From assembly GCA_002069765.1 (NCBI GenBank), contig MWBZ01000026.1, positions 1 to 46,512 of the forward strand: a stretch of DNA of 46,512 bases. Direction: 5' to 3'. The position numbers were made by a program, and so were the translations under genes. The notes under the pieces were generated by a model that saw only the letters and a list, made by a program, of their open reading frames with translations, searched no databases and was not told the DNA's origin. This DNA is from a bacterium ADurb.Bin243. GTDB lineage: Bacteria; Muiribacteriota; UBA9980. Below are positions 6,308-46,419 of the stretch, piece after piece (position 1 is the first letter of the stretch; every line of letters starts with the position of its first letter).

Positions 6308-6517
6308 TGGTTCTTTTTCATCTCGTATGGGTAAAATATTTAAATTAAATTAAGAGTTTAGAGTGGAGAGTTGAGAACTAAAGGACTTTTGGAAATTTCT
6401 ATAAGGCGTTTTTAATATTTTATATATAAAGCTCGCAGGGCGAGCCCCGGCCTTAACTATTCACTATCCACTCTACACTGTTCACTAATAAACTTGCCCA
6501 CATGAAATGAATAAGAG
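6308..6517 (+). repeat. Dispersed intergenic repeat, copy B
   Basis: This is the inverted partner of copy A (1532-1741), nearly identical over 210 bases. It contains the hairpin GCTCGCAGGGCGAGC at 6431-6445 and ends one base before the stop codon of the next minus-strand gene. With the tldD promoter it accounts for the gene-free stretch 6165-6518. Confidence 0.8.
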
Positions 6518-6518
6518 C

Positions 6519-15220: not shown

Positions 15221-15445
15221 TTTTTTGATAAGGGAAGGCCAGGGGCCAATGGCCCCTGCCTTCCCTTAAAATCCCTTCCAACCCCTGATTAGCCTGACGC
15301 TTTATTTTTGTGAAGTGCCAGCTTTTCTATCGGCGCTTTAATTCTGCTAGGCTCTTTTCTTATGTTGCTATAATTTCTTTTATGCTCAGCTTTTTATTTA
15401 TGTTTTTTTTGCAGACGCGCGCTTCGCTCGCGTCTGCGCTGCAAT
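15221..15445 (+). repeat. Two-hairpin intergenic element, copy E1
   Basis: Hairpin 1 (15230-15267) has 17 base pairs: arms AAGGGAAGGC.AGGGGCC and GGCCCCTGCCTTCCCTT, one bulged C. A pyrimidine-rich spacer leads to hairpin 2 (15411-15437, arms GCAGACGCG and CGCGTCTGC). The same arrangement recurs at 30435-30750. Hairpin 1 is not followed by a T-run, so it is not a simple terminator. With the repeat at 15505-15597 it accounts for most of the gene-free stretch 15157-15705. Confidence 0.7.
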
Positions 15446-15504
15446 AATGGCTTACGGGTTAGTTACCTTAAGGGTTTTATATTTACCTTTCGGTTAATCA
15501 AATA

Positions 15505-15597
15505 GAGCTCGCAGGGCGAGCCCCAGCCTTCACTATCCACTATGCACTATCAACTCTGCACTTCACTGATGCCCTTTCCCATACAAAATGAAAGGGA
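15505..15597 (+). repeat. Dispersed intergenic repeat, copy C (partial)
   Basis: It shares the GCTCGCAGGGCGAGC hairpin (15507-15521), the CACTATYCACT-type microrepeats and the right-hand end (GGG..CATACAAAATGAAAG-like) with copies A and B. The left half of the element is missing or unrecognisable. Confidence 0.65.
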
Positions 15598-30434: not shown

Positions 30435-30750
30435 TTTTTTGATAAGGGAAGGCAAGGTGCCGATGGCCCCTTCCTTCCCTTAAAATCCCTTCCAACCCCT
30501 AAACTGCCTGACGCTTTATTGCCTTGCGGCGACTGCTTTTCTGACGCGGCTTTAATTCGGTTTGCTTTTCTCTTTTTTTTGTTTTACTTTATTTAGCCTT
30601 TCTTTCTCTCTTCTCTCTTTTTCTATAAAATTTCTACTCAACTTTACTCTGCTCTAATTTATTATTTCTTTTTCTCAAATCTACTCCGCTCATCTCTGTT
30701 TTTTTATTTTGCAGACGCGCGCTTCGCTCGCGTCTGCGCAGCAATTATGG
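30435..30750 (+). repeat. Two-hairpin intergenic element, copy E2
   Basis: It matches E1 (15221-15445). Hairpin 1 at 30444-30481 keeps its stem although its sequence differs, including a C-G pair changed to A-T. A conserved AAAATCCCTTCCAACCCCT stretch and GCCTGACGCTTTATT follow. An expanded C/T-rich tract (about 30,556-30,710) then leads to hairpin 2 at 30711-30737, identical to that of E1. With the promoter and the copy D repeat it accounts for the 690 gene-free bases at 30406-31097. Confidence 0.7.
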
Positions 30751-30906
30751 CGTTCAGTAAATTGAAATTATGGTTTTATGGTAAGCGTTTTAATTATGCC
30801 GCCTGATGTGGGAGCTTTTGGGTATAAAGGAATGCATTGATAAATCAACTTAAAACAGAAGGGGGTAATAATATTTAAAAAAGGGTAAAAATATTTTTGA
30901 ATATTA

Positions 30907-30935
30907 TTGACTTTTTTATAATATTTTGCTAAAAT
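30907..30935 (+). promoter_or_regulatory. Promoter of the nuclease-TPR operon
   Basis: A TTGACT -35 (30907-30912), a 17-base spacer and a TAAAAT -10 (30930-30935). The copy D repeat lies between it and the ATG at 31098, so it would be transcribed as part of a leader of about 155 bases. Confidence 0.5.
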
Positions 30936-30949
30936 TAAAAGTAGGTAGA

Positions 30950-31066
30950 ATATTTTTATATTTTATATATAAAGCTCGCAGGGCGATCCCCAACCTTAAC
31001 TATTCATTATTCACTATTCACTGTACACTATTCACTAATACCTGCCCGCATGAAATAAAAATGAGT
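30950..31066 (+). repeat. Dispersed intergenic repeat, copy D (partial)
   Basis: It shares ATTTTATATATAAAGCTCGC with copy B, then the hairpin core with one mismatch (GCTCGCAGGGCGATC, 30974-30988), the TATTCACT-type microrepeats and the right end (CCCGCATGAAAT). Order and orientation relative to the preceding two-hairpin element match those of E1 and copy C. Confidence 0.65.
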
Positions 31067-31097
31067 CTTATTTTATAATTTAAAAAGGGGTGATAAT

Positions 31098-32213
31098 ATG
31101 CAAGGCGTTGTTGAAAACATTACCGTATTTTTGGAGTCTGCGGGGCTATGCAAGCTTATGAAGCTCGGGATAATCAACGGTGAAAAGCTTATTCTTACTG
31201 GCGCGAGCGTTGCGCCGCTTATGGCTTTTATGGAGCAGAAAGGCGTTTCCGGGCTGGAATTCGGCGAAGACTGGTCGCTGGAGTCCGGCGGCGTTTTCGT
31301 AAACCGTTATGGCGGCCATGACGAACCGGTTAAGCTAACATCGGTTTCTTCTATGGGTGAGGTATTTAGAGGGGCCAACAGGCGCATTAATCCCTTTTAC
31401 TGCAAGAAACCTGGCGGCTTGAACCCGTCCGGGCGCCCCGAACTCCCGGGCTCTGCAGCCCGCGCCTTTCGCGCAACCGATCTCGAGCGCGCCGGTGAAA
31501 TGAACGATATGATAAACTCGCTGCCGCTTAACAGGAAAGAACGCTACTGGACTTCATGCGTATTTCCGAATATAGTCTGCGGCGGCCGTTTCAGCCGTCT
31601 GCATATTTTTCTTAAAATGGCCGGCGTTCCGGATAAATTTATCAAAACTGAATATTCGAATTCTGAAATATGTTTCTACACCGAATATTCGCTCAAAGAA
31701 TCCGCCCTGGATTGGCGGGAAGTATGGCATATAAAGCGCGACACGCCGGATATCGTTATATTGCTGCGCGCGGCGTGCGGCGAAAAATTCCTGGTGGTGG
31801 TCGAGGCGAAGATGTACGACTACGTGACGGCGTCCGATCTCGCCGCCCAGATGCGCAGGCAGATGCCTGTTATAAATACTATCATGGAGCGCAACGCCAT
31901 GCCGCCCGAAAACTTTGCGCATGTCGGCCTTATTCTTTCTCCTACGGCTGAATTTGAAGCCGGATTGCTGGCCGAATTAACCGGCGCCCCCCGCGGCGAG
32001 GGAAGCGCGCCTGACTATGAAGAAGGATTGCGTCCGGCGGGCTGCAATCCTTCGCGGGTAAGGCTTATCGGCTGGAAAGATATACTTGACGCCTACCGGG
32101 AGCTCGAAGGCGATTATTTTTATGAGATGCTGAAGGTCGCCTGCGCTAACCCGCAGCTTGCGGTCACGCTGGAGGCTTATTTAAAAAGAAAGCCCGCGGG
32201 CGGAAGAAGGTGA
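31098..32213 (+). CDS. FVNR domain fused to a PD-(D/E)XK nuclease-like domain
   Basis: The 371-residue protein has two parts. Residues 1-105 contain a domain with GVFVNRYG, MGEVF and NRRINPF that recurs twice in the product of the gene at 35989. I do not recognise it as a named family. Residues about 130-370 show a PD-(D/E)XK-like pattern: acidic FYTEYSLKES, then P217-D218, then E236-A-K238 at the end of a hydrophobic strand (FLVVVEAK), as in restriction-type nucleases. Cleavage of DNA is inferred, not shown. The ribosome site is GGGGTGAT. It is first in an operon with a TPR protein 7 bases downstream. Confidence 0.75.
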   Translation: MQGVVENITVFLESAGLCKLMKLGIINGEKLILTGASVAPLMAFMEQKGVSGLEFGEDWSLESGGVFVNRYGGHDEPVKLTSVSSMGEVFRGANRRINPFYCKKPGGLNPSGRPELPGSAARAFRATDLERAGEMNDMINSLPLNRKERYWTSCVFPNIVCGGRFSRLHIFLKMAGVPDKFIKTEYSNSEICFYTEYSLKESALDWREVWHIKRDTPDIVILLRAACGEKFLVVVEAKMYDYVTASDLAAQMRRQMPVINTIMERNAMPPENFAHVGLILSPTAEFEAGLLAELTGAPRGEGSAPDYEEGLRPAGCNPSRVRLIGWKDILDAYRELEGDYFYEMLKVACANPQLAVTLEAYLKRKPAGGRR

Positions 32214-32220
32214 AGTTATT

Positions 32221-33660
32221 ATGGGCGATTCAGAATTTTTAGACAGGCTCGATGAATATTTTCAGACCCCTCACGGAGAGGGCGCCGCTCAAAACGATCC
32301 CGCCGATGAACCGGTCCCTTCGATAAGTGAACTTTCTGCTCTTGCAGCCTCGCGTATTGACGAATTTGCCGGCTCGAGCGCCGACCGAGCGCGTGCGCTG
32401 CTCGAAGAAGCCTGGCGTGAGTATGACGCCGGCCGTTTCGAGCAGGCGCTTAAATTAATAGAATCGGCGCTCATAACTTTCGTGCGCGGCGGCGCGGTGG
32501 ACAAAGCCGGCATTGCTACCGCATTTTACTCGGCGGCATATATCCATATTGAGAACGGGAGCTTCGAAGAAGCGTTAAAGGCCCTCGACGACTCAGAAAT
32601 GTGGCGTGACGCAGCCGGCGCGGCGTCCGACCTGGATAGTAGCGAAAGCGTTCAAAAATATATGATATTAAAAAAGCGCGCGGCCGCGCATTGCGCCCTT
32701 AAAGAATATGCCGGCGCGTGCGAAGACATGCGTCTTGCGCTGATCGAGATATTGAAGGCGCGCGGTCTCAACGATCCGGCCGTCGCCGATTATTATTGCT
32801 GCTACGGCCGTTATTTGTTGGAGGCCGACAGATATGAAGAAGCGTTCCGCCAGTTAAACAGCGCGATATCCGTTTATGAGGGCTTAATTGAAAAGCACGG
32901 CTATGCGGCGGTGGAGCATTCGGGCAATATTCCGCCAAAACCCTTTTCGGCGGTTTCTTTTCCATATGCCGATCTTCGCGAAGCCTATGAGCTCGCTTTT
33001 CTTGCCTGCGCCGAGCTGGGCTGGTACGGCATGGCGATCTCTTATAACGCCGATCTGAAGCGCCATACGATAGAGTGCGGCATTAACGATCCCGAGGTAT
33101 TCGCTTCTATCGAAAACACCGGCGGCTCTTCACTTATGTGTGTAACCGACTATCGCGGCGCCTTAGAAGCGTTCAGCGCGGCGTCCGGCCTGCTTGCGGA
33201 TATGCCGTCTTCGCCTGGCCGCGACATTCTGCTTGCCGATGCATACAAAGGCATTGCCGAAGCCGCAATCGCCATTAGCGAAACCGGTGCGGCGGAAACT
33301 TATCTGCCTCTCGCCGCCGAATTATACCTGGGCCTGATATCCGATGATAACGTGAGGCCCCTGCGCGATTTATTGAGCATTTGCGACGCGTATTCAAACG
33401 CGCTTGACGATCATGAAACTACTCTAAAACTTTACTGCCGTGCTATCGCAACTGCCGGCGAGCGCGGCGTTACCAATGCGCTTTACATGGGCCGGCTCCA
33501 CTATTCGGCCGGGCTCGAGTTCGCCGCCTATGGCGCGATGCGGGGCGCGCGAGAACATTTCCGTCTGTCTATTGAATATTACGAAAAATGCGGCCGGGCG
33601 GACCTCGCCGAAAGGTCACGGAACGAATATGTACAGATACCAGATGATGAAGCGATTTAA
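32221..33660 (+). CDS. TPR-repeat protein
   Basis: The 479-residue soluble acidic protein is built of helical pairs with the TPR spacing. Examples are AWREYDAGRFEQALKLIESA near 62, YIHIENGSFEEALKALDDSE near 100, GRYLLEADRYEEAFRQLNSA near 200, and a final YSAGLEFAAYGAMRGAREHF. It has no enzyme domain and is likely an adaptor for the nuclease encoded immediately upstream (7-base gap, with its ribosome site inside the end of that gene). TPR proteins paired with nucleases are common in defence loci; the target here is unknown. Confidence 0.8.
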   Translation: MGDSEFLDRLDEYFQTPHGEGAAQNDPADEPVPSISELSALAASRIDEFAGSSADRARALLEEAWREYDAGRFEQALKLIESALITFVRGGAVDKAGIATAFYSAAYIHIENGSFEEALKALDDSEMWRDAAGAASDLDSSESVQKYMILKKRAAAHCALKEYAGACEDMRLALIEILKARGLNDPAVADYYCCYGRYLLEADRYEEAFRQLNSAISVYEGLIEKHGYAAVEHSGNIPPKPFSAVSFPYADLREAYELAFLACAELGWYGMAISYNADLKRHTIECGINDPEVFASIENTGGSSLMCVTDYRGALEAFSAASGLLADMPSSPGRDILLADAYKGIAEAAIAISETGAAETYLPLAAELYLGLISDDNVRPLRDLLSICDAYSNALDDHETTLKLYCRAIATAGERGVTNALYMGRLHYSAGLEFAAYGAMRGAREHFRLSIEYYEKCGRADLAERSRNEYVQIPDDEAI

Positions 33661-33755
33661 TCATATGAAGGCAAATTTAGTGAATTAGCGCAAACTTTTC
33701 GTATTCATGTTATTGCCATTTCCGGCTATTACAAATATGATGAGGAGGTATTTAT

Positions 33756-34145
33756 ATGGTAACGCTGTTTGATTTTATATGGGTATACGTCAAATCGATG
33801 ATTTTTATTATCGCCGTCATCTTTATATGCGGCAACTATGCTTTAGAAAATCCCTATATCGCGATCCTTGGACCTATAATTGGATTTGCACCGCTTTACG
33901 TCAAGTTATACCGGCAGCAAATCCAGGCAAAGCAAAAAGAAAAACTGGACGTGCTAAAACGTCAGTACGAAGAGCAGAAGCGGATTGAGCTTGAGAAAGA
34001 AGAAAGACGGCAGGCGAAACTAAGAGAAAGAGCGCTAAGCGAAATGAGAAGCGAAATGCTGTTCCGGAAGATGAACATGTTCCAATTATTAATGGAATTA
34101 AGAAAACGCATCGCGAGGATTGAAAGTCAGGAAGACGGCAGATAG
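33756..34145 (+). CDS. Small membrane-anchored coiled-coil protein
   Basis: The 129-residue protein has two hydrophobic segments (about 5-27 and 33-50) followed by a long charged coiled coil (QQIQAKQKEKLDVLKRQYEE onward). It has a strong ribosome site (GAGGAGG). I do not recognise it. The hairpin-like membrane anchor with a cytoplasmic helical tail could tether or oligomerise another component. It lies 95 bases after the TPR gene on the same strand, so it may belong to the nuclease operon. Confidence 0.65.
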   Translation: MVTLFDFIWVYVKSMIFIIAVIFICGNYALENPYIAILGPIIGFAPLYVKLYRQQIQAKQKEKLDVLKRQYEEQKRIELEKEERRQAKLRERALSEMRSEMLFRKMNMFQLLMELRKRIARIESQEDGR

Positions 34146-34181
34146 CATATAAAAAAATATCAAATCTACTTAAACTATTAT

Positions 34182-34210
34182 TTGACAAATAAATTTATAA
34201 TTGATAAAAT
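34182..34210 (+). promoter_or_regulatory. Promoter of the DCD-AAA+ gene
   Basis: A consensus TTGACA -35 (34182-34187), a 17-base spacer and a TAAAAT -10 (34205-34210). The ATG at 34236 and its GGGGTGG ribosome site follow directly, which argues against translation starting upstream of this element. Confidence 0.65.
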
Positions 34211-34235
34211 TAATTCATTAACAGGGGTGGTCTTT

Positions 34236-35534
34236 ATGAGGATAAAAGTTCCGTGCTTTTTCAGGATCTGCAACAACAAAACGGAGGCCGAATGCATCGA
34301 AAAAGGCGTCTTCGGCGGCGTAAAATACGATCACGCCAACCTGCAGAGCATTGAAAAAGGCCATATAGGCTTTCTTTATAATGCCGAAAGGCAAAATCTT
34401 ATAGGCGTTTTCGCGGCGGAAGACCGGCCGGGTTATAATCTCGTTCCGGGCGCGTTCCGCGGCGAATATCCGCTTCATGTCAAAGTCCGCCCCGTCACCG
34501 CAAATATCTTATACATAGAAAACGCATTCGATCGCCTGGATAAAATAATCAAGTTAAAACTGGCGAAATTCGGATGCTTTTCATACCCGCAATATCCGGT
34601 TCACGGCCCCGATATCACCGAAAAAGTCTTGAAACTATTCTACGGCACGCTCGAAGACATGCCGCCCGAACTCAAAGAATTCCTCGAGATCGACGCCGAA
34701 CCGCCCGCCCTGCCCGGCCAGATAATAGAAGCCGGCTTCGACCTCGATCAGGTAGCCGGCCTCGACCAGGTCAAAAACTTCATCCGAAGCCGCATCATCG
34801 CGCCCGCAAAGGACCCTGAGCGCGCCGACAAATTCAAACTGCGCGTCGGGGGCGGAATGCTCCTTTACGGTCCGCCCGGCACGGGCAAGACCCTTATTGC
34901 CCGCGCGATCAGCAGCGAGATACAGGCGAAATTCTTCGAAATAACCCCTTCATTCATAATAGGCTATCCCGGCGAGGCCGAGGAGAACCTCGAAAAATTA
35001 TTCAGCGAGATCGCACGCCAGCCGCGCGCCGTGCTATTCATGGATGAGGCCGAGTGGATATTAAAGACCCGCGACGGCCAGTCGTCGTCGGTTATGGAGC
35101 GCATCACGCCGGTCCTTTTATCGCAATTAAGCACGCTCTTCAACGAAAAAGACCGCCAGATAATCATTATAGCTGCCACTAACGAGCCGCAGAAAATCGA
35201 CAAAGCTTTCCTCCGTCCCGGCCGTTTCGACAAGAAATTTTATGTAGGCCTGCCGAACGCCGAAGAACGCCTAAAAATCCTTAAAATCAACCTTAAAGAC
35301 AAAGCCTGCCAGATCGGCGAAACCGAAATGATAGACATAGCCGCCGCACTTGACGGTTATTCCGGCGCAGACATAGCGCACATCGTTGATGAAGCCGCCT
35401 TCGACGCCTTCGACCGGAATGACATCGAGCGTGACCACATTCTTAAAGACGATATAATGAAGGCTGTAACGAGAACGGAAAAGTCAGTGACCGAGAGTAT
35501 TATCGAGAAATTTAAGAAGATTGAAACATTATAA
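34236..35534 (+). CDS. AAA+ ATPase with N-terminal DCD-like (PUA/EVE-related) domain
   Basis: The start at 34236 is chosen because GGGGTGG precedes it and the promoter covers the longer frame. The 432-residue protein has an N-terminal domain (about 1-110) with the layout of the DCD domain best known from plants: FRICNNKTEAEC, then GVFGG, GHIGFLYNAERQNLIGVFAA, and PGAFRGEYPLHVKVRP. This fold is related to EVE/YTH/ASCH readers of modified bases. The C-terminal AAA+ module has Walker A GPPGTGK (K218), Walker B FMDEAE (D270, E271), sensor 1 AATNEP, and arginine-finger FLRPGRFDKKF, close to the Cdc48/FtsH class. It stands alone under its own promoter. A ligand-gated remodelling ATPase is inferred. 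Confidence 0.82.
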   Translation: MRIKVPCFFRICNNKTEAECIEKGVFGGVKYDHANLQSIEKGHIGFLYNAERQNLIGVFAAEDRPGYNLVPGAFRGEYPLHVKVRPVTANILYIENAFDRLDKIIKLKLAKFGCFSYPQYPVHGPDITEKVLKLFYGTLEDMPPELKEFLEIDAEPPALPGQIIEAGFDLDQVAGLDQVKNFIRSRIIAPAKDPERADKFKLRVGGGMLLYGPPGTGKTLIARAISSEIQAKFFEITPSFIIGYPGEAEENLEKLFSEIARQPRAVLFMDEAEWILKTRDGQSSSVMERITPVLLSQLSTLFNEKDRQIIIIAATNEPQKIDKAFLRPGRFDKKFYVGLPNAEERLKILKINLKDKACQIGETEMIDIAAALDGYSGADIAHIVDEAAFDAFDRNDIERDHILKDDIMKAVTRTEKSVTESIIEKFKKIETL

Positions 35535-35633
35535 ATTAAAAAAATTAATAATTTTTTTGATTTTAAAATAAGTTAGAATTATTAGTTATGTGAGTAAATA
35601 AATTAGATAAAAATCGGAATTGTGAGGTGCGAT

Positions 35634-35975
35634 ATGTTCGATCATGTTACTTTTATTGAAGAATTAATCAAAAAATGGCGTGATGAAGGCAAGACTTTAT
35701 TTTATACGATTGACGTTATAATTGCCATCAAAGGCCAATATTTAAGAGATAAAGATACTTCAGTATGCGATTCATATAATGCTGATATAGGAAGAATGTT
35801 AAGCGACCACTGTTTTGATAAAGAAAAAGGGACATATACTGAAAGCAACGGAAAATGGCCCAGGGGTCGTTCTACGCCGACTTTTCCAATCATCCTGCAT
35901 AAAATTAAATGTCGCGTTAAAGATGTAGAGGGCAGGCCCAGTCAGAGCGCTCAATGGAAAATTATAAATATGTAA
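35634..35975 (+). CDS. Small hypothetical protein opening the AT-rich operon
   Basis: The ATG at 35634 with AGGTG upstream is preferred over the GTG at 35622. The 113-residue protein has an N-terminal helix (FIEELIKKWRDEGKTLFYTI), a central charged part and a C-terminal strand-rich part (PTFPIILHKIKCRVKDVEG). I do not recognise it. The first half could be a small winged-helix-like fold, but this is weak. It is 13 bases from the FVNR-repeat gene, so the two are coupled. Confidence 0.6.
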   Translation: MFDHVTFIEELIKKWRDEGKTLFYTIDVIIAIKGQYLRDKDTSVCDSYNADIGRMLSDHCFDKEKGTYTESNGKWPRGRSTPTFPIILHKIKCRVKDVEGRPSQSAQWKIINM

Positions 35976-35988
35976 AGGGAGGGACGAA

Positions 35989-36675
35989 ATGAATAAACGC
36001 GATTCAATAGAATTTTTTCACGAAATAGGATTTCAAAAATTACTTGATCTTGGAATTTTAGTCCCGATCGGAAGCACATGTCAGTTGAAAGGCACAAGCG
36101 TTCACAAACTTATTAAATTAATGGAGAAGATGAATGTAGATTGCTTGTATCACAATGAAAACGGCGCCTTAAAATGGTTTTTAAAAGTCAATGGCGATTT
36201 TGTTAACAGATATGGCTCAAAGCAGGGACATGTATCTCAAGTTCCTTCACTGGGCGATGTATTTATAAGATCAAACAGAGATATACAACCTTTTTGGGAA
36301 GGAAAAAATTTAGACTATGAATTTATTGAAGACGGCGAAGTTGAAGATGGTGAAATTGAAGACGTCATAGAAGGCGAAGAAGTTGAAATATCCCAATTTT
36401 TAAAACAATTTGACGAAACAGATCTTCAAATTAGAAAAGTTTTAAATACTGTACATAATTATCTTAATAGCAATAGCGTCAAACCGTTGCTTGAATTAAT
36501 GAAAGAACATGGAATTTCTAAGTTGAAGCACGGTTACAAGTGGTATTTGCTCTCAAATGGCATGTTTGTTAACAGATTCGGAGGATATAATAATGAAACA
36601 GATTACAGAAAGGTGAGACCGATTGGCGACGTTTTTTTGCACACTAACAATGACATTAATCCGTTTAGAAGATAA
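35989..36675 (+). CDS. Protein of two FVNR domains
   Basis: The 228-residue protein is a tandem of one domain. The first copy (about 1-105) ends with GDFVNRYG, LGDVF and NRDIQPF; the second (about 142-228) ends with GMFVNRFG, IGDVF and NNDINPF. An acidic linker (EDGEVEDGEIEDVIEGEEVE) joins them. The same domain forms the N-terminus of the nuclease protein at 31098. Shared features are a helical first half with L-x-x-L-M-(E/K), a W-x-L strand, then the FVNR(Y/F)G, GxVF and N-x-x-I-x-PF signatures. There is no catalytic pattern, so a binding or recognition module is likely. The ribosome site is GGGAGGG. It lies upstream of the GHKL ATPase gene in the same operon. Confidence 0.7.
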   Translation: MNKRDSIEFFHEIGFQKLLDLGILVPIGSTCQLKGTSVHKLIKLMEKMNVDCLYHNENGALKWFLKVNGDFVNRYGSKQGHVSQVPSLGDVFIRSNRDIQPFWEGKNLDYEFIEDGEVEDGEIEDVIEGEEVEISQFLKQFDETDLQIRKVLNTVHNYLNSNSVKPLLELMKEHGISKLKHGYKWYLLSNGMFVNRFGGYNNETDYRKVRPIGDVFLHTNNDINPFRR

Positions 36676-36730
36676 AACCGCCGTTCATCGTATGTAATTA
36701 ACTATAAATTAGAAGTTTTGGAGGTTTTTA

Positions 36731-39700
36731 ATGAATGATTTTAATGAGCTGATTAATGATAGAAAAATATATCTTGACGCTCTAAAAAGACCTAACAATA
36801 ATTTCAATTTTGAAGAAATATTTTCCGGATTATACGACGATCCTTCTCATTTTATTTATGAATTAATTCAAAATGCGGAAGATCAAAAAGCTAAATCGGT
36901 CAGTTTTATTTTGTTTGATGACCGGCTTGAATTTTTTCATGACGGTGTTAGTTTTTTGTTTAAAGACGTCGCTTCGATTACCAGCATCGGTAACAGCACG
37001 AAAAAAGATGACGTCAATAAAATCGGCAAATTTGGAATTGGTTTTAAGTCGGTATATGCTATAACAAATTCTCCAGAAATTTATTCCAAAACCTACAGTT
37101 TTAATATAAAAAATTTAGTTTTGCCTGAACTTATCGAAACTCAATACAATTCGGAGATTACAAAATTTGTTTTCAAATTCGAGCATAAAAAAAGATCAAA
37201 AGACGAAATATATGATTTAATTAAAAAGAAATTGATTGAAATCGACGTAAGGACAATCCTTTTTTTAAATTATATTCAAAAACTTGAATGGCGGATCAAT
37301 CAAAGTTCCGCAGGTATAATCGAAAAGAAGGTAAATATTATCGATGACCAGTCCAGCATCGTTATAGTTTCGGATATTACAAAAAAAATTGGCGAAAAAT
37401 GGCTTGTTTTTAAGAGAAAAGTAAATAGTGAAGAAAATAATGAACTTGACTTGAAAGTTGAAATTGCTTATAAAATTGAATTCGATGATAAAACAAAAAC
37501 GGAAACTATAAGAGAAATTAGTGATTCAAAGCTTGTAGTTTATTTTCCCACTAACATAGATACGCGTTTAAAATTTCTAGTGCAAGGCCCCTATAAAACA
37601 ACTCCAGCCAGAGACAATGTGCCGCCTGCCGATGTTTGGAATTTAAAATTAAACAGTGAAATATCAACATTGATATCCGATAGCATCTTATCAATCAAAA
37701 AACTTGGTTTTTTAAATCCGGATTTTTTAAATATTTTGCCTATCAACGAATCTGATTTTCCTATAAAAAGTAGATTTAGAAGCGCGTATGAAAAAGTTTT
37801 TGAAAAACTTATGTCAGAAGAACAGTTGATTCCAAACGATGACGAGGGATATGTCGAATATAAAAACGCATATTACGCTGAAAACTCAAGATTATTAAAT
37901 TTATTATCTCAAAACAATAATTTAAATATACTAACTAAAAATATAAATGCCAGGATGATCCATCCGGATATTTTTAAATATAGAGATTTGGCTTTATATT
38001 TTAGGCAAAAACTGCGAGTAAACAATATAGATGGCAATAAATTCGCCGATCTTTTCGATATGGATTTTATATTAAAACAATCCGACGAATGGGTTATTGA
38101 CTTTTATTTTTATCTTTCTAAAAGCATTTCTTTATGGCAGAAAAAGTCCGCCGCTTGCGCGTCTGATGGCTTGTTAAGGCATAAACCATTTATCCGGCTT
38201 GAAAATGATTCCCATATTAAACCTTTTGATGAAAATGAACGGCCTCAAGTGTTTTTATTTGATGAAAACAATACATATTTTTCGATGGTTAAAAGGCGAA
38301 TATCAGAAAGTGATTTAACGAAAGATTTCTTTAGTCTTATCGGAATTAAAAAGCCTGATGAAATCGATGAAGTAATTAAATTTATTTTGCCTTTATACAA
38401 TTCAGATGTCTTGCCGTCCGTTGACCAAAACATATGCCATATAAAGAAAATAATTGAAATTTTTCGAAAAGATATTACTAATAAACAACTTTTAATTCAA
38501 AAACTTAAAGAAACCAGGATCTTTCTCGGCTTGAATAAATTATCCGGAAAATTGTCTTATTTTATGCCTGATGAATTGTTTTTGCCTTTGAAGTATTCTG
38601 GTAACGATATGTTAGAAGAGTTCTTTGAAGGAAATCCGGACATTTGCTTTTTATCTGAAGAATATGAGGACATTTTTAAAAGCAATGACATTGATTTATT
38701 AAATAAACTTGGATTTAAAACAAATCCGGTCGATAAAAAATCGATATTTAAAGAGCCTGTTATTATAGGTATTGATAATTTGTTAGATAACATTTCAATC
38801 TCTAAGTCCTGCGTTTTATGGAGATTTATAATCGATGCTTTTAAGCGAAACATAAATCCGTTTTATTACTCAACGGCAAAAAATCCAAAAGAAGAAACTG
38901 AAATTTTAAAAATTTTAAAATCAAAACCATGGCTCCCAAATAAAAAAGACATTAAATTTTATCCTCCCTTATCGATGCTTATTTCAGATCTTCCTGATGA
39001 CTTCGATACGGAAAGCGCCGAGGCAAAAAAGGTTATTAAAGAATTAAGTTTTATGCAGGATTCATTGCTTGAAGCAATCAATAAAATAAGCGACGACAAA
39101 TGCAGAGACAAGCTTAAAATAGCTTTGGAACTTGATATCGAAGATTTGAACGAAGCTCTCAGAAGAAAAAGGGGAAAAACTGAAATTCAGATCGATGAAA
39201 GTACGTCTAAAGTAGGGGAAATTAATGAAAAGAGTACAAAAAAAAGGCCTTCGTCTGTTGACCAAACTGAAAAATTCAATAACGAAATTTGGGTGCCGGA
39301 ATGCAGCAAAATCGATGATGTTAAAGTAACCAGAGCCACATCTAGCGATACAAAATGTTCTGATGATTTTCAATATGAATGTGATAATGAAGAAACCGCA
39401 ACTACGGGCGTAAAAAAAAGAAAAATGAGCAACCCTGAGTCATTGAAAAATATTGGGTTCAGAGGAGAATTAACTGTAATTAAGTTTTTAAAAGAAGTAT
39501 ATTATAAAGAATTATACCCGTCCGCAACCTGGAAAACTTGCGATGGCGAAAATATTTTCGCGCTGATTGACGACGGAAAAGAAATATTAAAATTAGAATT
39601 GGTCAACAGCTCAAAAGTTAATGCCATTGGAAGAGACATCGACGTTACAGAAAACGGAATTCGTAAGTATTTTGAAGTTAAAACGGATAATTGGGTAATG

Positions 39701-39901
39701 CCGAGCAGGGCGCAGTGGAAGAAAGCAAAAGAATTGAAGGAAAATTATTACATTTGCAAAGTTTATAACGTCGGCAAGTCGGAATCGCAGGTAGAAATAA
39801 TTCAAAATCCTTACGAAGCCTGGAGGAATATATTGGATAATCCTTATAAGGATTGGGAAAACGGAAATTATAGAGTATTACCGAGAATAAATTATGATTG
39901 A
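36731..39901 (+). CDS. Sacsin-type GHKL ATPase with C-terminal DUF3883-like nuclease domain
   Basis: The 1056-residue protein starts with an HSP90/sacsin-like ATPase domain: N-box E44-x3-N48-x2-D51 in ELIQNAED, HDG at 70-72, and glycine-rich GKFGIGFKS at 99-107. About 700 residues of helical and strand-rich middle region, which I do not recognise, follow. A charged linker (about 780-905) leads to a C-terminal domain (907-1056) like DUF3883/NO VEIN C-terminal: FRGELTVIKFL, GRDIDV (D969) and YFEVK (E982, K984), a PD-(D/E)XK-like layout. Large GHKL proteins of this sort occur in defence loci. The gene overlaps the helicase gene by 8 bases and is AT-rich compared with the left part of the window. 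Confidence 0.85.
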   Translation: MNDFNELINDRKIYLDALKRPNNNFNFEEIFSGLYDDPSHFIYELIQNAEDQKAKSVSFILFDDRLEFFHDGVSFLFKDVASITSIGNSTKKDDVNKIGKFGIGFKSVYAITNSPEIYSKTYSFNIKNLVLPELIETQYNSEITKFVFKFEHKKRSKDEIYDLIKKKLIEIDVRTILFLNYIQKLEWRINQSSAGIIEKKVNIIDDQSSIVIVSDITKKIGEKWLVFKRKVNSEENNELDLKVEIAYKIEFDDKTKTETIREISDSKLVVYFPTNIDTRLKFLVQGPYKTTPARDNVPPADVWNLKLNSEISTLISDSILSIKKLGFLNPDFLNILPINESDFPIKSRFRSAYEKVFEKLMSEEQLIPNDDEGYVEYKNAYYAENSRLLNLLSQNNNLNILTKNINARMIHPDIFKYRDLALYFRQKLRVNNIDGNKFADLFDMDFILKQSDEWVIDFYFYLSKSISLWQKKSAACASDGLLRHKPFIRLENDSHIKPFDENERPQVFLFDENNTYFSMVKRRISESDLTKDFFSLIGIKKPDEIDEVIKFILPLYNSDVLPSVDQNICHIKKIIEIFRKDITNKQLLIQKLKETRIFLGLNKLSGKLSYFMPDELFLPLKYSGNDMLEEFFEGNPDICFLSEEYEDIFKSNDIDLLNKLGFKTNPVDKKSIFKEPVIIGIDNLLDNISISKSCVLWRFIIDAFKRNINPFYYSTAKNPKEETEILKILKSKPWLPNKKDIKFYPPLSMLISDLPDDFDTESAEAKKVIKELSFMQDSLLEAINKISDDKCRDKLKIALELDIEDLNEALRRKRGKTEIQIDESTSKVGEINEKSTKKRPSSVDQTEKFNNEIWVPECSKIDDVKVTRATSSDTKCSDDFQYECDNEETATTGVKKRKMSNPESLKNIGFRGELTVIKFLKEVYYKELYPSATWKTCDGENIFALIDDGKEILKLELVNSSKVNAIGRDIDVTENGIRKYFEVKTDNWVMPSRAQWKKAKELKENYYICKVYNVGKSESQVEIIQNPYEAWRNILDNPYKDWENGNYRVLPRINYD

Positions 39902-41645
39902 CCTTAATGAAATACAGGAGTCGGTTAAATCTGAAATTACCCGTCTCGATGAGCCGCGTAACCGCGCCCGCTATTTTATGTATGGAAAGGCTGGTGAAAG
40001 CGATTCAGACGGGTCTTATTCAGTTGTTTTTCGTAACGCGCCCGAAAGGGTTTTAAGAGACATTAAATACGTTTATGAGCCGTTGTTCAGGGTCGGCGAT
40101 CTATTCGTTAACGGAAAGTTCGAAAAAGTTTCAAACGGGGTTAAAGTAACATTTGAAAAAGCGGTTTTAAGATCGAGCGGGATAGATAATTTTAATCTGC
40201 GACAAATTACAGATTTTGGAATCGATTATATTATGGACGGCAGAAGATTAACCGCCGATCTTTTGAATTTTTTGACGATTAATTCGACAAACCCAAACGA
40301 GATAGTATCGTCACTACTCGATAAATCGGTTTTATCTGATCATAAGGAAGTCGTCGCTGCATTTGCCGCCGATAAACTTAACGAATCTCAAATAAAGGCC
40401 GTCAAAAAAGCATTATCGCAAAATATCACATTCGTATGGGGGCCGCCTGGAACCGGAAAAACCAAAACTATGGGCGCTCTCGCATCTCATCTTATAAAAA
40501 ACGGTAAGCGGGTTTTGCTGACCGCTTTATCAAATAAGGCACTGGACCAGCTCCTCATATCTACACTGGAATCAGCCTCGCCGCTCAACAAATTCAATAT
40601 TACGGTCGCAAGAACGGGCAGCGTTGATAATATGCATGATTCGGTAAAGATTTTTAGCCGAGACATATATCAGAACAGGCAATATAGGATCAAGCGAAAC
40701 GCTTTTACATGGAACGAGCATGTGAGCCTTTGTACCTGCGTAGCCACTAACTTTGCGTCGCTTGCCTCGCCTAAAACCGCTGATCCGGGTCCGGTTGATT
40801 TCGTTATTGCAGACGAAATGTCCATGGCCAGCATACCGGCAATCATCGCGGCTTGTTATTACGCCAAAAAAGGCGTGGTTCTGGGTGGAGATCCCATGCA
40901 GCTTCCTCCTATATTCCCGGATGACGCCGACAAGCCGAATGCCTGGTTTAGCCGGAATATTTTTGATATGGCAAAGGTTGAACGGCACGACGAAAGAACA
41001 GCATTTCTCGATACGCAGTACAGGATGCAGGAGCCGATTGGAAATCTTGTAAGCGATCTATTTTACGAAGGCGAGTTAAAGACGGGCACGGCAAAAAAAG
41101 ACATTAAAGGAACTTTCAAAAGCAATATAGTGTTTATAAATTGTAAGGGAAAAATTGAAAACATAAACGGCGCCGTTATAAATGGAACGGAAGAAAGAAG
41201 ATTCAATGAAAAGCATGCCGAAGCGATTGCCGGAATAACAATTAAACTTGTAAACAATAAGGAATTTAAATCTGAAGAAATTGGCATTATCGCACCTTAT
41301 AACGCCCAGATAGTCAAAATTAAAGAGGTTCTCGCAAAGTCCACTGAACTCATTAAAATCAATCCAGAGTATTTTGAACAAGTACAGGTATCGACGATTC
41401 ATTCATTTCAGGGCCAGGAAAAAAGCGTCATTATTATGAATATCTGCGACGACGAAGTTAAACCGACAAGACTTACTGCAAGAAAAGAGTTAATCAATGT
41501 TGCACTTTCGCGTGCTAAAGAATTACTGATAATTGTTGGAAACCGAGATTATCTTTTGAACCAGAATTACTTCTCGAAAGATGAAACGGAAATATTTAAG
41601 AAGATTATTGAGAGTTCTGAAGTTATAAACTCTGAAAAATTATAA
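39894..41645 (+). CDS. UPF1/DNA2-like superfamily 1 helicase
   Basis: The 583-residue protein has an N-terminal beta-rich region (about 1-160) and both RecA-like domains of an SF1B helicase. Motif I is GPPGTGKT (about 183-190); motif II DEMS (about 306); motif III GGDPMQLPP; then QYRMQEPIG, HSFQGQEKSVIIMN and NVALSRAKELLIIVG as motifs IV-VI. This is the UPF1/IGHMBP2/DNA2 type, which unwinds RNA or DNA 5'-3'. No nuclease domain is fused, unlike Cas4-DNA2 proteins. Its start (ATGATTGA) overlaps the end of the GHKL ATPase gene, so the two products are made together and probably form a complex. Confidence 0.9.
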   Translation: MIDLNEIQESVKSEITRLDEPRNRARYFMYGKAGESDSDGSYSVVFRNAPERVLRDIKYVYEPLFRVGDLFVNGKFEKVSNGVKVTFEKAVLRSSGIDNFNLRQITDFGIDYIMDGRRLTADLLNFLTINSTNPNEIVSSLLDKSVLSDHKEVVAAFAADKLNESQIKAVKKALSQNITFVWGPPGTGKTKTMGALASHLIKNGKRVLLTALSNKALDQLLISTLESASPLNKFNITVARTGSVDNMHDSVKIFSRDIYQNRQYRIKRNAFTWNEHVSLCTCVATNFASLASPKTADPGPVDFVIADEMSMASIPAIIAACYYAKKGVVLGGDPMQLPPIFPDDADKPNAWFSRNIFDMAKVERHDERTAFLDTQYRMQEPIGNLVSDLFYEGELKTGTAKKDIKGTFKSNIVFINCKGKIENINGAVINGTEERRFNEKHAEAIAGITIKLVNNKEFKSEEIGIIAPYNAQIVKIKEVLAKSTELIKINPEYFEQVQVSTIHSFQGQEKSVIIMNICDDEVKPTRLTARKELINVALSRAKELLIIVGNRDYLLNQNYFSKDETEIFKKIIESSEVINSEKL

Positions 41646-41697
41646 CTGCTGATTGAATAATCATGTTTTTCAACGTTTTGAAAATAGGAGTATAATA

Positions 41698-42183
41698 TTG
41701 TTTGATGATGAAGTTACTTGTCCGGAATGTGGTTATTATGGTTATATAACTGATGACGGTGAATGTCCTATATGTGGTTGTGATATTGAAGAAACCGAAG
41801 GAGAAATTAGAAATAAAGAAGAAAGAGAAAAAGAAAAGGAAGAAAAAGAATACTTAAAAGAAAAGGAAATTGATGAAGAAGAAATAGAAAATTTAACTGA
41901 AGAGGAAATAGATCGTGATGTCGAAGAACAAATTATACATGAATCAGGAGATTATGAAATCGATCTAGATGATCTTATGGATGATGACGAAGAAATATGT
42001 CTCAGAAAAGAAGAGGAGATTGAATATGAAATAAGTGCTGATGAAGAAAGAGATTACTTAGAATATACAAGGAGGCTCAAAGAAATAACTGAAGAGGAGG
42101 AATTTGAAGAAAATAACGGATATTATGATCGGTATGAAGGCGAACGAAGATTTGAACAAGAAGACGAAGAAGATGATATATAA
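41698..42183 (+). CDS. Hyperacidic protein with N-terminal zinc ribbon
   Basis: The best start is the TTG at 41698, 7 bases after AGGAG; the open frame reaches a TTG at 41653 that has no ribosome site. The 161-residue product begins with a rubredoxin-like zinc ribbon (CPECGYYGY..CPICGCD, four cysteines). The rest is nearly all charged, with about 70 of 161 residues Asp or Glu. It could be a DNA/RNA-mimic or a chaperone-like inhibitor or assembly factor for the helicase and ATPase encoded upstream, but no function is known. It is the last gene of the AT-rich operon, 20 bases short of the convergent zorC stop. Confidence 0.65.
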   Translation: MFDDEVTCPECGYYGYITDDGECPICGCDIEETEGEIRNKEEREKEKEEKEYLKEKEIDEEEIENLTEEEIDRDVEEQIIHESGDYEIDLDDLMDDDEEICLRKEEEIEYEISADEERDYLEYTRRLKEITEEEEFEENNGYYDRYEGERRFEQEDEEDDI

Positions 42184-42202
42184 AAGTCCTGATTTTAAAT
42201 GA

Positions 42203-43414
42203 TTAGATTTTATTACCTATAGCGCTATTTATCCTCGCGAGCGCTTCGTACTGCCAGTCCTGCTTGTGTATGACCCTGAACAGAGCTTGTTCTGGATATT
42301 TCAGTTTTGACTCGTATGATGAGTTGTAAAATTTTCTGATCAGCAGGTCGGCGAATTCGGCTTTATAAACGTAACAGGCGTTGCCGATGTTGGCGAATTC
42401 GAGGATCGCGATGTTTTCGATATACATTAGAATGGCGTTTATCTGGCTGAATTTATAGGCGTTCGTGAAGCGCTGGCCGTAGTTCTTTTGCCAGAAGTTG
42501 AACCGGACGTTGTCTTTGTCGAGCTTGTCGAAAAATTTTCTTATCTCGGCGATGCTGTATCTGTTCTGCAGTTTTTTCAGAACCGGTCCCGTGACGAAAT
42601 TCCAGTTGTCCATGTTGGAAGGCGTTCCGAGCAGGTGGAAAAAATAATTCAATATCAACTCGTTCCAGGCATCGTCGGGTGTCTGGCTGAAATATTTTCC
42701 GGCGAATTGAATCGCCTCTTCTTTTGACAGGTGCTTCGTTAAATATGAAAAAATTTGGATGTCGCCCTCAAGCCTTCCGAATTCAGGCTCGTACCCCGTC
42801 ATAATCTTCTTTATCATCAGCCCGTGTAAAAAGCCGTCTTTGTGTATCGAATAATAGGCGCAAAAGTTACTCAATATGTATTTTTTATTCTGGTATAAAA
42901 TGAATAGGCCGTCGATGAAAGAGGCCGGCTGACTTTTGATGAAAAATCTCTCTGCTTCGACCATATTTATGCCCTCCGTGCCCGGCCTTTTTTGATCGCC
43001 TCCGGCCGACGTGGTTGCGATCGTCAATGAATAAAGATTTTTATTTTCGGGCGATAACACCAGCGCGTTCCAGAAAAGCGAGAATTTGAATATCTGTCTG
43101 CGAAGTCCTACTATGGCGAGGACTTTATCGCAGAATGAATCATCTTCGTTCTTTAAAGCGGTCAATAAAAATAAAGCCTCCCGCCTGGTGAGCGCGAACG
43201 CTATTTTAACGAGTTCGTTGCGGCCCCCGCGCTTTATCTTCTTGAGCAATTCGTCAAAGTTGTCGGGCCCCGACGCGGCCGAAAGCGTCTCGTCATTTTT
43301 AGAGTGCCGCTTATGCGTACGCGCGATCGTCTCGGCCGCTTCGATAAGTCTGGTCGGCGTGCAGCTGCTTAAATTTATAAATATTCCCTTGTCGCGATTC
43401 GAGTCGGATGCCAT
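42203..43414 (-). CDS. zorC: ZorC-like protein (EH_Signature domain)
   Basis: The 403-residue soluble protein is third in the zorA-zorB order. Its C-terminal half has the EH_Signature layout of ZorC: DNVRFNFWQKNYGQRF, the conserved Glu in ILEFANIGNACYVY, and the conserved His in VIHKQDWQYEA. In Escherichia coli Zorya, ZorC is a DNA-binding component thought to act with the ZorAB motor after phage DNA entry. This protein is shorter than the E. coli one, with a reduced N-terminal part. It shows no HNH motif, so it is not ZorE. No ribosome site is obvious; it starts 17 bases after the zorB stop. No zorD follows: the next gene converges. Confidence 0.75.
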   Translation of the reverse strand: MASDSNRDKGIFINLSSCTPTRLIEAAETIARTHKRHSKNDETLSAASGPDNFDELLKKIKRGGRNELVKIAFALTRREALFLLTALKNEDDSFCDKVLAIVGLRRQIFKFSLFWNALVLSPENKNLYSLTIATTSAGGDQKRPGTEGINMVEAERFFIKSQPASFIDGLFILYQNKKYILSNFCAYYSIHKDGFLHGLMIKKIMTGYEPEFGRLEGDIQIFSYLTKHLSKEEAIQFAGKYFSQTPDDAWNELILNYFFHLLGTPSNMDNWNFVTGPVLKKLQNRYSIAEIRKFFDKLDKDNVRFNFWQKNYGQRFTNAYKFSQINAILMYIENIAILEFANIGNACYVYKAEFADLLIRKFYNSSYESKLKYPEQALFRVIHKQDWQYEALARINSAIGNKI

Positions 43415-43431
43415 AGTTTGTCACTGCCCGC

Positions 43432-44253
43432 TTATTTTTGATCCAGTAATTTCGAAAGTTCTTTCAACGCCTCGTCGTCCTTTAACCTGAATTTGACCTC
43501 GATGCGGCGTGATTTGTCAAGATCGACGTTCCCGGTCGGGTCTTTGATCGGAACGCTGAACGATTTGCCGTTCGCCGTCACGAATTTCTGGAAAAGCTCT
43601 TTTTTGGCCGGATCGACCACCTGAATGAAATATTTCATGATAGACTGCGCGCGGCGCTGCGAAAGATCAAGATTATAAATGTAGTCGCCGCGGTTGTCCG
43701 CATGGCCTTCTATGACTATTTCTGCGAGATGGTCTATGAACTCCTGAGTGTCGAATAGGATGTTGACGTAAGTTTCCAGCAGCAGTTTTAGCAGAGGCTT
43801 GAATTCTTCTTTAATGGCGTCGGAGTCGGTATCGAATAAAATATCGCCGCTTATCCGGATCGCCCCTGTGAACGGATCGACTGCCAGTTTCAGATTAGAC
43901 GACGACCGTTCGAATTTTTCCTTGATCAGATTGATTATAGAGCTCTTGATGCCTATAATTTTTTCGATCTGGTCTTTGTAATATTTTAGTTCGATCTCCT
44001 TTGAGTCGAGCGCGTTTTCTTTAAGCTTTAATTGTTCGGTTTTATGGTCGAGTTCGGATTGTATTTTAGCTAATGTTTCCTTCTTGGCCTCGATTTCTCT
44101 TACGTATTGAACCACATCGGTCGTTTTGCTGTATAAGACCGCGATAAGGGTGAGCACGAAGATCATCATTATCCCGGTCATCAGGTCTGAGATCGAGATG
44201 AGAAAGTCGTTTTTATCGCTTAAATCGTGTTGTTTTAATTGCTTGTTGAACAA
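43432..44253 (-). CDS. zorB: ZorB: MotB/OmpA-like anchor of the Zorya motor
   Basis: The 273-residue protein starts at a TTG with AGGT six bases upstream. It has a short N-terminal cytoplasmic part and a transmembrane helix (about 24-42) preceded by the key ISDLMTG, whose D23 matches the ion-path aspartate of MotB-type stators. A coiled coil (about 50-100) leads to an OmpA-like peptidoglycan-binding domain (ILFDTDSDAIKEEFKPLL, IEGHADNRGDY, LSQRRAQSI, SRRIEVKF). ZorB dimers sit inside a ZorA pentamer and anchor it to the cell wall. It lies 78 bases downstream of zorA. Confidence 0.88.
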   Translation of the reverse strand: MFNKQLKQHDLSDKNDFLISISDLMTGIMMIFVLTLIAVLYSKTTDVVQYVREIEAKKETLAKIQSELDHKTEQLKLKENALDSKEIELKYYKDQIEKIIGIKSSIINLIKEKFERSSSNLKLAVDPFTGAIRISGDILFDTDSDAIKEEFKPLLKLLLETYVNILFDTQEFIDHLAEIVIEGHADNRGDYIYNLDLSQRRAQSIMKYFIQVVDPAKKELFQKFVTANGKSFSVPIKDPTGNVDLDKSRRIEVKFRLKDDEALKELSKLLDQK

Positions 44254-44331
44254 GTTGATACCTATATTTGTATTATTAACTATTATTGTTAATATAGTTT
44301 TTACTTTTGCTTCTGTTGTTGTTTCTTTAAA

Positions 44332-46419
44332 TTATTGTTTTAAATTATTATTTTTTACCGCTTCCTTTTGGATTAAACCGATCTGCGAGTCGAGCGCGTT
44401 CTGAAATTCGTTTATCACTGCTGGAATATCCTTAACCGCTGAATCGATCTCCGTTATAGTGCCACTCAGGCGCATTGAAATTTTTGACAACTGCTCGTCA
44501 AAAACGGAGAATGTCTGGTTGAAACTTTGGCTCAGGTTCGTTCCCAGCAGGCCGGCTGATTTCTCTAAGAATTCGCCTGTCTCGCGCATTTTGTCTTCGA
44601 TGCCATTTATGGAACGCTGGAAATCGCCAAAAATCTTATTGGTCTTCATGAGGAACGACTCAATGTCCTTGACGCTCGACATTACTGAGCCGCCGATGGC
44701 CCTGGCGGCTTCCTTGACCTGCGCCGAGAAATTATTGTTAAATTCATTAAGAGAGTTTTTGAACTCGCCGAACATCTTGAAGTTATCAGAACTGTCGAAC
44801 GCGGTCTGGATTTTTTTGGATATTTCAATGCTGATATCTTCCGGCAGGCTTTTCATCTGCTGCGAATATACTTCAAAGGTGTCGCCCAGATTGGCGATGC
44901 TGCCGCCGAGGCTGTCGGTCGCGTTCTTCAGCATATCCTTTATACCGATAAACTTGATCACCAGCTCGTCGCTTATCGCCTTTACCGAATCTGCGAGTTT
45001 GTTGCTGTCGAACGCCCTGTTGATCTTGTTGGCCACGACGTCCGCTATTTTATTTGGCAGGCCTTCATAGCAGCTGAGTTGTTTGTTGAATATGAAAATG
45101 GCCTTATGAACGATACGATCGAGTTCGCCGCTGAAATCAACCGCTTCGACCTTGATCTTTTCAAAAGTATCATTGAAGCTATTAGTCAAAATCGATATTT
45201 CTGACGCTAGTTTTTTGATATTTATCTCGACCTGCTGTTTCCCGTTCAGAAATTTTTCAGAGAACTGATTTAACCCGGCCTCGAATTTATCGGCCGACTC
45301 GACTATTTTATTTGAAAATTCATTCATTTTATTTACAGTTTGATTCATGTTGCCCGTCGCCTTTTCAAACGTTGCGTTGAGCGTCTTGGCGAAATCCCTG
45401 AATTTAGAAGTTATCTCGAAACTTTCCTTTATGGAGTTCATTATGGCTTTGATCTCGGTTTTGACGGTTATTGCGTTCTCTTTGTGCTCCGCGCTAACCC
45501 TCAAAAGATCGTCTTTCAGTGTGTCAAGCGTCGCGGTGAACTCCGTCAGAAAGCTCATCGCCTTATTGGTGTATTCGAACGATTGATCGATCGCTTTCTT
45601 TATTTCAGGCAGGAATTCGTCTTTAAGACCTGAGTTTATGCTCGATGATATCAAAGAGAAACTTTTGTTTTGAGATTCGATTATCCTGTCGGCCGTCAGC
45701 TCAAGCGTCTTATTTACGCTTTCAAATTTCTGGGGCAGGATCTCGTTGTTCTTAATGTTCGAGATCATGCTTTTTATGATGATGTGCTCGAGATCTATCG
45801 TCGGATAGTACTTTTCTATGTTGATATTAAATTTTTCAATCTCGATCAAAAGGTTCTTATAATGGCGCTTTTCATTAAGGATCCAGTACAGTCCGAGTAT
45901 TATTCCAACGATCGAAGTTAAGAAGGCTATGTTCATGCCCGACAGAAGGGATTGAATGTCGTTTAGTAATATCTCGCCCTTCGTTATATGGATTGAAGAA
46001 ATGCCTATTATAAGGCCGATGAAGGTGCCAAGTATGCCAAGGCCTGTCATTATGCCGGGTATGGAATTTATCATCCTTAAATTGAGCAATTTTTCTGAAA
46101 TATTTTCGGCGCTGAAAAAATCGGAATGTTTGATGTGGCTGTATGTTTTGCCAGAATATTCAATTATATTCAAAGACCTTTCTTCTATGAAGTCCGTATA
46201 AATTTCCGCAAGTGTGGCGAAATTTTTAAAATTTTCTTTTAAAAATACGGCCAGCTCGGTTTCGTCATTGAACTTGAATAAGGTCAGCCTGTTATTGATA
46301 AATGTAAGTTTTTTCCTCAAATTCTTGATGGGGATGATCAGAGATATCCTGAAAATCAAAAATGCAATGCCTATTAAGCAGCACATCGTAAGATTTATTA
46401 AATTCGAATATTCCTGCAT
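44332..46419 (-). CDS. zorA: ZorA: MotA/TolQ/ExbB-like proton channel with long coiled-coil tail
   Basis: The 695-residue protein has three transmembrane segments (about 9-30, 121-143 and 162-182). The last two carry the MotA/TolQ/ExbB signature GIMTGLGILGTFIGL and GMNIAFLTSIVGIILGL. About 500 residues of coiled coil follow, typical of ZorA, whose tail projects into the cytoplasm and is thought to transmit a phage-infection signal to the effector. The ATG is preceded by GAGGT and by a near-perfect promoter. With zorB and zorC it makes a Zorya-type set; a ZorD helicase-nuclease is missing from the expected place. Ordinary MotA/ExbB proteins lack such a tail. Confidence 0.88.
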   Translation of the reverse strand: MQEYSNLINLTMCCLIGIAFLIFRISLIIPIKNLRKKLTFINNRLTLFKFNDETELAVFLKENFKNFATLAEIYTDFIEERSLNIIEYSGKTYSHIKHSDFFSAENISEKLLNLRMINSIPGIMTGLGILGTFIGLIIGISSIHITKGEILLNDIQSLLSGMNIAFLTSIVGIILGLYWILNEKRHYKNLLIEIEKFNINIEKYYPTIDLEHIIIKSMISNIKNNEILPQKFESVNKTLELTADRIIESQNKSFSLISSSINSGLKDEFLPEIKKAIDQSFEYTNKAMSFLTEFTATLDTLKDDLLRVSAEHKENAITVKTEIKAIMNSIKESFEITSKFRDFAKTLNATFEKATGNMNQTVNKMNEFSNKIVESADKFEAGLNQFSEKFLNGKQQVEINIKKLASEISILTNSFNDTFEKIKVEAVDFSGELDRIVHKAIFIFNKQLSCYEGLPNKIADVVANKINRAFDSNKLADSVKAISDELVIKFIGIKDMLKNATDSLGGSIANLGDTFEVYSQQMKSLPEDISIEISKKIQTAFDSSDNFKMFGEFKNSLNEFNNNFSAQVKEAARAIGGSVMSSVKDIESFLMKTNKIFGDFQRSINGIEDKMRETGEFLEKSAGLLGTNLSQSFNQTFSVFDEQLSKISMRLSGTITEIDSAVKDIPAVINEFQNALDSQIGLIQKEAVKNNNLKQ

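Follow-up and report, generated by a model that had tools for sequence, protein, structure and literature searches.

A probable anti-phage operon pairing a Tiamat-related sacsin-type ATPase with a UPF1-like helicase in a Muiribacteriota bacterium

When an operon combines an ATPase, a nuclease and a helicase and lies directly beside a known defense system, does it represent a new antiviral system or a new version of an existing one? Such an operon occupies positions 35634–42183 of the contig that we analyzed (46,512 nucleotides in all, hereafter the window), and a sequence-only reading had put it forward as an undescribed defense operon. That proposal holds for the set as a whole but not for its core. 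No named system containing all five genes was found in Pfam, NCBIfam, PADLOC or PHROGs, and no paper naming this combination turned up in the open literature that we searched, which did not surface the original description of Tiamat. The core, however, is of a known kind, resembling TmtA of Tiamat, MkoA of Mokosh, and the GHKL ATPases of restriction-type operons that also encode helicases and nucleases (Iyer et al. 2008, PMC2292703). The operon is most likely a variant of the sacsin/Tiamat–helicase–nuclease kind of defense and not a categorically new one.

All five open reading frames are present on the forward strand, and the short spacing ascribed to them is exact, with gaps of 13 and 55 bp followed by an 8-bp overlap. 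The first gene, ORF1 (35634..35975), encodes a 113-aa orphan whose best start is the ATG at 35634, with GAGG ahead of it (an alternative in-frame GTG lies at 35622). It is followed by a 228-aa protein (35989..36675) in which an acidic linker separates two copies of what we call the FVNR domain, by a 1056-aa sacsin-type GHKL ATPase with a C-terminal nuclease domain (36731..39901), by a 583-aa UPF1/DNA2-like SF1 helicase (39894..41645), and by a 161-aa zinc-ribbon and hyperacidic protein (41698..42183). The longest frame of this last gene opens at a TTG at 41653, but the start is the TTG at 41698, which sits behind AGGAG and explains the spacing of about 50 bases that had been noted.

The base composition of these genes sets them apart from their surroundings: GC content at third codon positions is 0.15–0.41 within the operon versus 0.50–0.63 in the directly surrounding genes, including a Zorya locus on one side and an upstream operon encoding an FVNR–nuclease-like protein on the other. 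Because this contrast is so sharp, the five genes were probably acquired separately from both neighbors. The window additionally contains a dispersed repeat family, with intergenic members at 30435–31078, 15221–15550, 6409–6529 and 1519–1640 that are 80–94% identical to one another. An 8.4-kb contig binned as Omnitrophota (L011) is 100% identical to positions 36168–44576, and its genome matches no other stretch of the window; this contig was probably misbinned in one of the two assemblies or is shared by both, and we do not count it as an independent occurrence of the operon.

The third gene had been read as an HSP90-like ATPase fused to a PD-(D/E)XK-like domain, and profile searches agree. 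The protein matches the sacsin GHKL family (PF25794, E=8e-18; NF047352, E=3e-26), with its ATP-binding core at residues 40–118 (36848..37084), and the NOV_C/DUF3883 family (PF13020, E=4e-7) at residues 956–1023 (39596..39799). The GHKL motifs ELIQNAEDQ (at 44) and GKFGIGFKS (at 99) are present, and E44 and N48 are invariant in an alignment of 18 homologues. In the tail, the putative nuclease residues D969, E982, K984 and Q995, which form the pattern G-x-D...E-x-K...Q, are invariant among seven diverse DUF3883 domains. DUF3883 was named a REase domain in 2013 (PMC3710099), and by these sequence criteria the tail is a predicted PD-(D/E)XK nuclease. Nine PADLOC profiles for TmtA match the protein (best E=4.8e-78), with the alignment confined to about positions 30–654 of 1302.

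The adjoining SF1 helicase, also anticipated from the sequence, matches helicase families only (AAA_12, PF13087, E=4e-35; AAA_11, PF13086, E=1e-26) and retains every SF1 motif intact, i.e., GPPGTGKT at 183 (with K189 as the Walker lysine), DEMS, GDPMQLPP, QYRM, QGQE and SRAK. Its nearest solved structures are DNA2 and UPF1 (E about 2e-28), and among defense profiles it comes closest to Mokosh MkoA, in the helicase half (E=7e-62). Among 382 genomes there were no close relatives of this helicase, the best match scoring 103 bits.

Sacsin-type genes occur with helicases in other genomes as well. Sacsin homologues were gathered from plasmids, from whole genomes (chosen by relatedness or by phylum) and from IMG/VR contigs, and their neighborhoods were then examined; apart from the window itself, loci were picked by their sacsin sequence and not by any helicase, and near-duplicates were collapsed. 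With the window helicase as the only query, a UPF1-like helicase was fused to 7 of the 40 sacsin genes outside the window, and UPF1-like matches occurred in 3 of 70 genes adjoining sacsin (one of them weak) versus none of the 165 other ORFs of the same loci. For helicases of all types the figures were 22/72 adjoining genes versus 3/189 others, a count that includes the window and is inflated because some of the query helicases came from these very loci.

These pairings take three forms. In the first, the gene for a sacsin protein with an HNH-like CxxC...CxxC tail directly follows one for a DrmD-like SNF2 helicase; such a helicase gene lies immediately upstream of sacsin in L005, L009, L010, L024, L026, L028, L055, L056 and other loci. 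(The DrmD-like plus sacsin unit, mostly with the HNH-like zinc tail, is itself a recurrent and unnamed arrangement, seen in L005, L009, L024, L026, L028, L055, L056, L072, L079 and L088.) In the second, a sacsin gene whose product has a DUF3883 tail either stands by itself or follows a gene for a UvrD-like helicase, the helicase in L069 and L073 carrying a PDDEXK_1 nuclease of its own. In the third, sacsin and a UPF1-like helicase are fused, often inside a type III restriction-modification operon (L007, L077, L078); in a locus from the same genus as the window (L032, 2–12200), the fusion lies directly downstream of apparent cas1 and cas2 genes, as read from the sequence. The window combines features of the second and third forms, since its DUF3883-type sacsin gene overlaps a separate gene for a UPF1-like helicase. 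Some sacsin genes adjoin Qat, and in two loci (L072, 11409–15164; L080, 291–3887) sacsin adjoins a conserved RecD/UPF1-like protein of about 1200 aa with the N-terminal motif KHISIRxPWHD. On this comparative evidence, the sacsin ATPase, helicase and nuclease make up a recurrent candidate defense module of which the window holds another variant.

Several known or recurrent systems resemble the operon without coinciding with it. Tiamat likewise has a sacsin-type GHKL ATPase, but PADLOC defines it by one protein, whereas the window has five genes, and the TmtA match of the window protein is not full-length, unlike that of L090 (924 bits, covering 3–1537 of 1552); like the window ATPase gene, this related L090 gene has a UPF1-like helicase gene downstream, beginning 2 bp after it and encoding a PIN domain. 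The unnamed fusions in L007, L077 and L078 join the same two activities in one polypeptide, with no detected DUF3883 tail; they occur with a methyltransferase and Res and without the FVNR or acidic proteins. The MORC/paraMORC operons (PMC2292703) and the DrmD-like plus sacsin pairs also bring GHKL, helicase and nuclease together in conflict operons, but their helicases belong to SF2 rather than SF1, and most of the sacsin proteins linked to DrmD-like helicases have the HNH-like tail in place of DUF3883. The DrmD-like SNF2 gene found directly upstream of sacsin in DISARM-like pairs is absent from the window. Mokosh shares the UPF1/COG1112-type helicase, but the match is confined to the helicase half of MkoA (best stretch 772–1099 of 1112), and nothing in the operon matched MkoB, the kinase part of MkoA, or MkoC with its PLD domain in Pfam or PADLOC.

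We therefore favor, with fair though not full confidence, the view that the five genes are an anti-phage operon gained by horizontal transfer and built around a helicase coupled to a sacsin ATPase–nuclease module related to Tiamat, the defense function being what we infer from its composition and context. The TmtA-family ATPase, the invariant residues, the helicase pairing, the foreign GC content and the position abutting Zorya all argue for this reading; counting against it are the placement of the window ATPase outside the UPF1 fusions in a sacsin-domain tree (which is poorly resolved, so that its position is not robust) and the many DUF3883-type sacsin genes that have no helicase beside them (L023, L025, L050, L053). 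These lone genes, along with the single-protein definition of Tiamat, raise the alternative that the sacsin–DUF3883 gene is a defense system by itself, with the other four genes (helicase, FVNR, ORF1 and acidic) carried along independently on the same island. The higher third-position GC of the helicase gene (0.41) relative to the ATPase gene (0.30) would fit such a patchwork. Nonetheless, the two genes overlap, and the seven fusions and the full-length TmtA/UPF1 gene pair of L090 tie the same partners together elsewhere, which makes an ATPase acting alone improbable.

The locus is distinguished by its accessory genes, which encode the FVNR protein, the 113-aa orphan and the hyperacidic zinc-ribbon protein. 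Whereas sacsin and UPF1-like helicase genes occur fused or adjacent in other genomes, these three were found in no other locus, and their membership in the system therefore rests on spacing and shared composition. ORF1 belongs to no family in Pfam, NCBIfam, PADLOC or PHROGs and has no plasmid match. The acidic protein is as extreme as had been supposed (44% D+E, pI 4.1); its zinc-ribbon matches in Pfam are all sub-threshold, and it weakly matches phrog_4852 (E=0.002).

The FVNR protein had been described as two copies of an unfamiliar binding domain, and the duplication is real: the copies at 36016–36309 and 36439–36669 share about 40% identity, well above chance, and the protein matches no family in Pfam, NCBIfam, PADLOC or PHROGs. 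Its predicted structure (mean pLDDT 58) was too poor to use, and a comparison with the PDB gave no match with E below 1. A third copy (31131–31412; E=2e-12, and 161 bits by profile) lies at the N-terminus of a protein in the neighboring operon (31098..32213, forward strand), where it is fused to the PD-(D/E)XK-like motif TPDIVIL...VVVEAK...Q (positions 216, 233 and 251). Outside the source genome, no FVNR homologue appeared in genome contigs (L011, the identical contig, being the sole match), viral contigs, plasmids or a profile search of 382 genomes, a search run without a positive control. The domain thus occurs in two contexts, as a two-copy protein in the sacsin–helicase operon and as the head of a nuclease-like protein next door.

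That neighboring protein matches no family in Pfam, PADLOC or NCBIfam, and its predicted structure (pLDDT 41) was not used. It opens a second defense-looking operon (31098–35534, forward strand) that continues with a TPR protein, a protein of 129 aa that combines a charged coil with a hydrophobic N-terminus, and an AAA ATPase bearing a DCD ('Development and cell death') domain (PF10539, E=4e-13), the AAA part of which resembles IetA. The DCD domain is known mainly from plants. It is possible, though we hold the idea only tentatively, that FVNR is a new, lineage-restricted recognition module common to two adjacent but separate defense operons, both of which read the same infection cue.

How might the sacsin–helicase operon act? 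The genes, their domains, the intact catalytic residues, the foreign composition and the recurrent pairing of ATPase and helicase are all supported by sequence, while the type of target and the sequence of steps are inferred, and what the three small proteins do is guessed from their place in the operon and their composition. Recognition of a nucleic acid or complex specific to infection may fall to the two-domain FVNR protein, perhaps together with ORF1. In the manner of HSP90 and MutL, the sacsin GHKL ATPase would then close as a clamp gated by ATP; the UPF1/DNA2-like helicase would translocate on the target strand and unwind it; and the C-terminal DUF3883 domain would cut that strand. The hyperacidic protein, encoded last, could serve as a brake or regulator that mimics nucleic acid.

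Inhibitors that mimic nucleic acids typically take the form of an acidic partner, and such a protein would also suit a different scheme, in which RNA or host nucleic acid is the substrate of the helicase and nuclease, the outcome is abortive growth arrest instead of degradation of the invader, and the acidic protein is an antidote-like partner. RNA helicases do occur within the UPF1 family, and the PIN domain of the L090 helicase is of an RNase type. But the helicase matches DNA2, a DNA enzyme, equally well, DUF3883 has been called a REase (i.e., DNA nuclease) domain (PMC3710099), and several relatives reside in DNA restriction-modification operons, so that we consider abortive arrest very unlikely.

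The operon does abut a Zorya-like locus, as had been claimed. Genes for ZorC, ZorB and ZorA, identified by PADLOC and NCBIfam matches, lie on the reverse strand at 42203..46419, convergent with the operon and with gene ends 20 bp apart; ZorC, recognized by its EH signature, is short (403 aa) and weakly matched, and the contig ends 93 bp past ZorA. Neither ZorD nor ZorE lies beside them, and in the whole genome no ZorD exceeded the cut-off, with generic helicase matches only. Of the known effectors, ZorD is an SNF2 helicase with an Mrr-like nuclease and ZorE an HNH protein, against an SF1 helicase in the operon. In the published model, Zorya is a sensor and ZorAB recruits a nuclease effector or complex (Mariano et al. 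2025, PMC11890865). The adjacency, the missing ZorD and this recruitment model would allow ZorA/B/C to sense phage while the sacsin nuclease and UPF1 helicase act in place of ZorD, but this is more improbable still, given that the two loci are separate and on opposite strands, that Zorya is host-like in composition (third-position GC of 0.56–0.61 versus 0.15–0.41), that the contig stops just beyond ZorA, and that no other case was seen.

Taking the anti-phage operon as the preferred reading, its broader meaning concerns the Tiamat family. The single-gene Tiamat ATPases are here tied to helicases: across unrelated hosts the sacsin ATPase is linked to helicases of UPF1, UvrD or DrmD type, whether fused, overlapping or adjoining, and this recurrent pairing points to a helicase-coupled machine in which Tiamat-like proteins would supply the clamp and the nuclease. 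The most interesting part of the operon is the FVNR domain, an uncharacterized module common to two neighboring defense-like operons.
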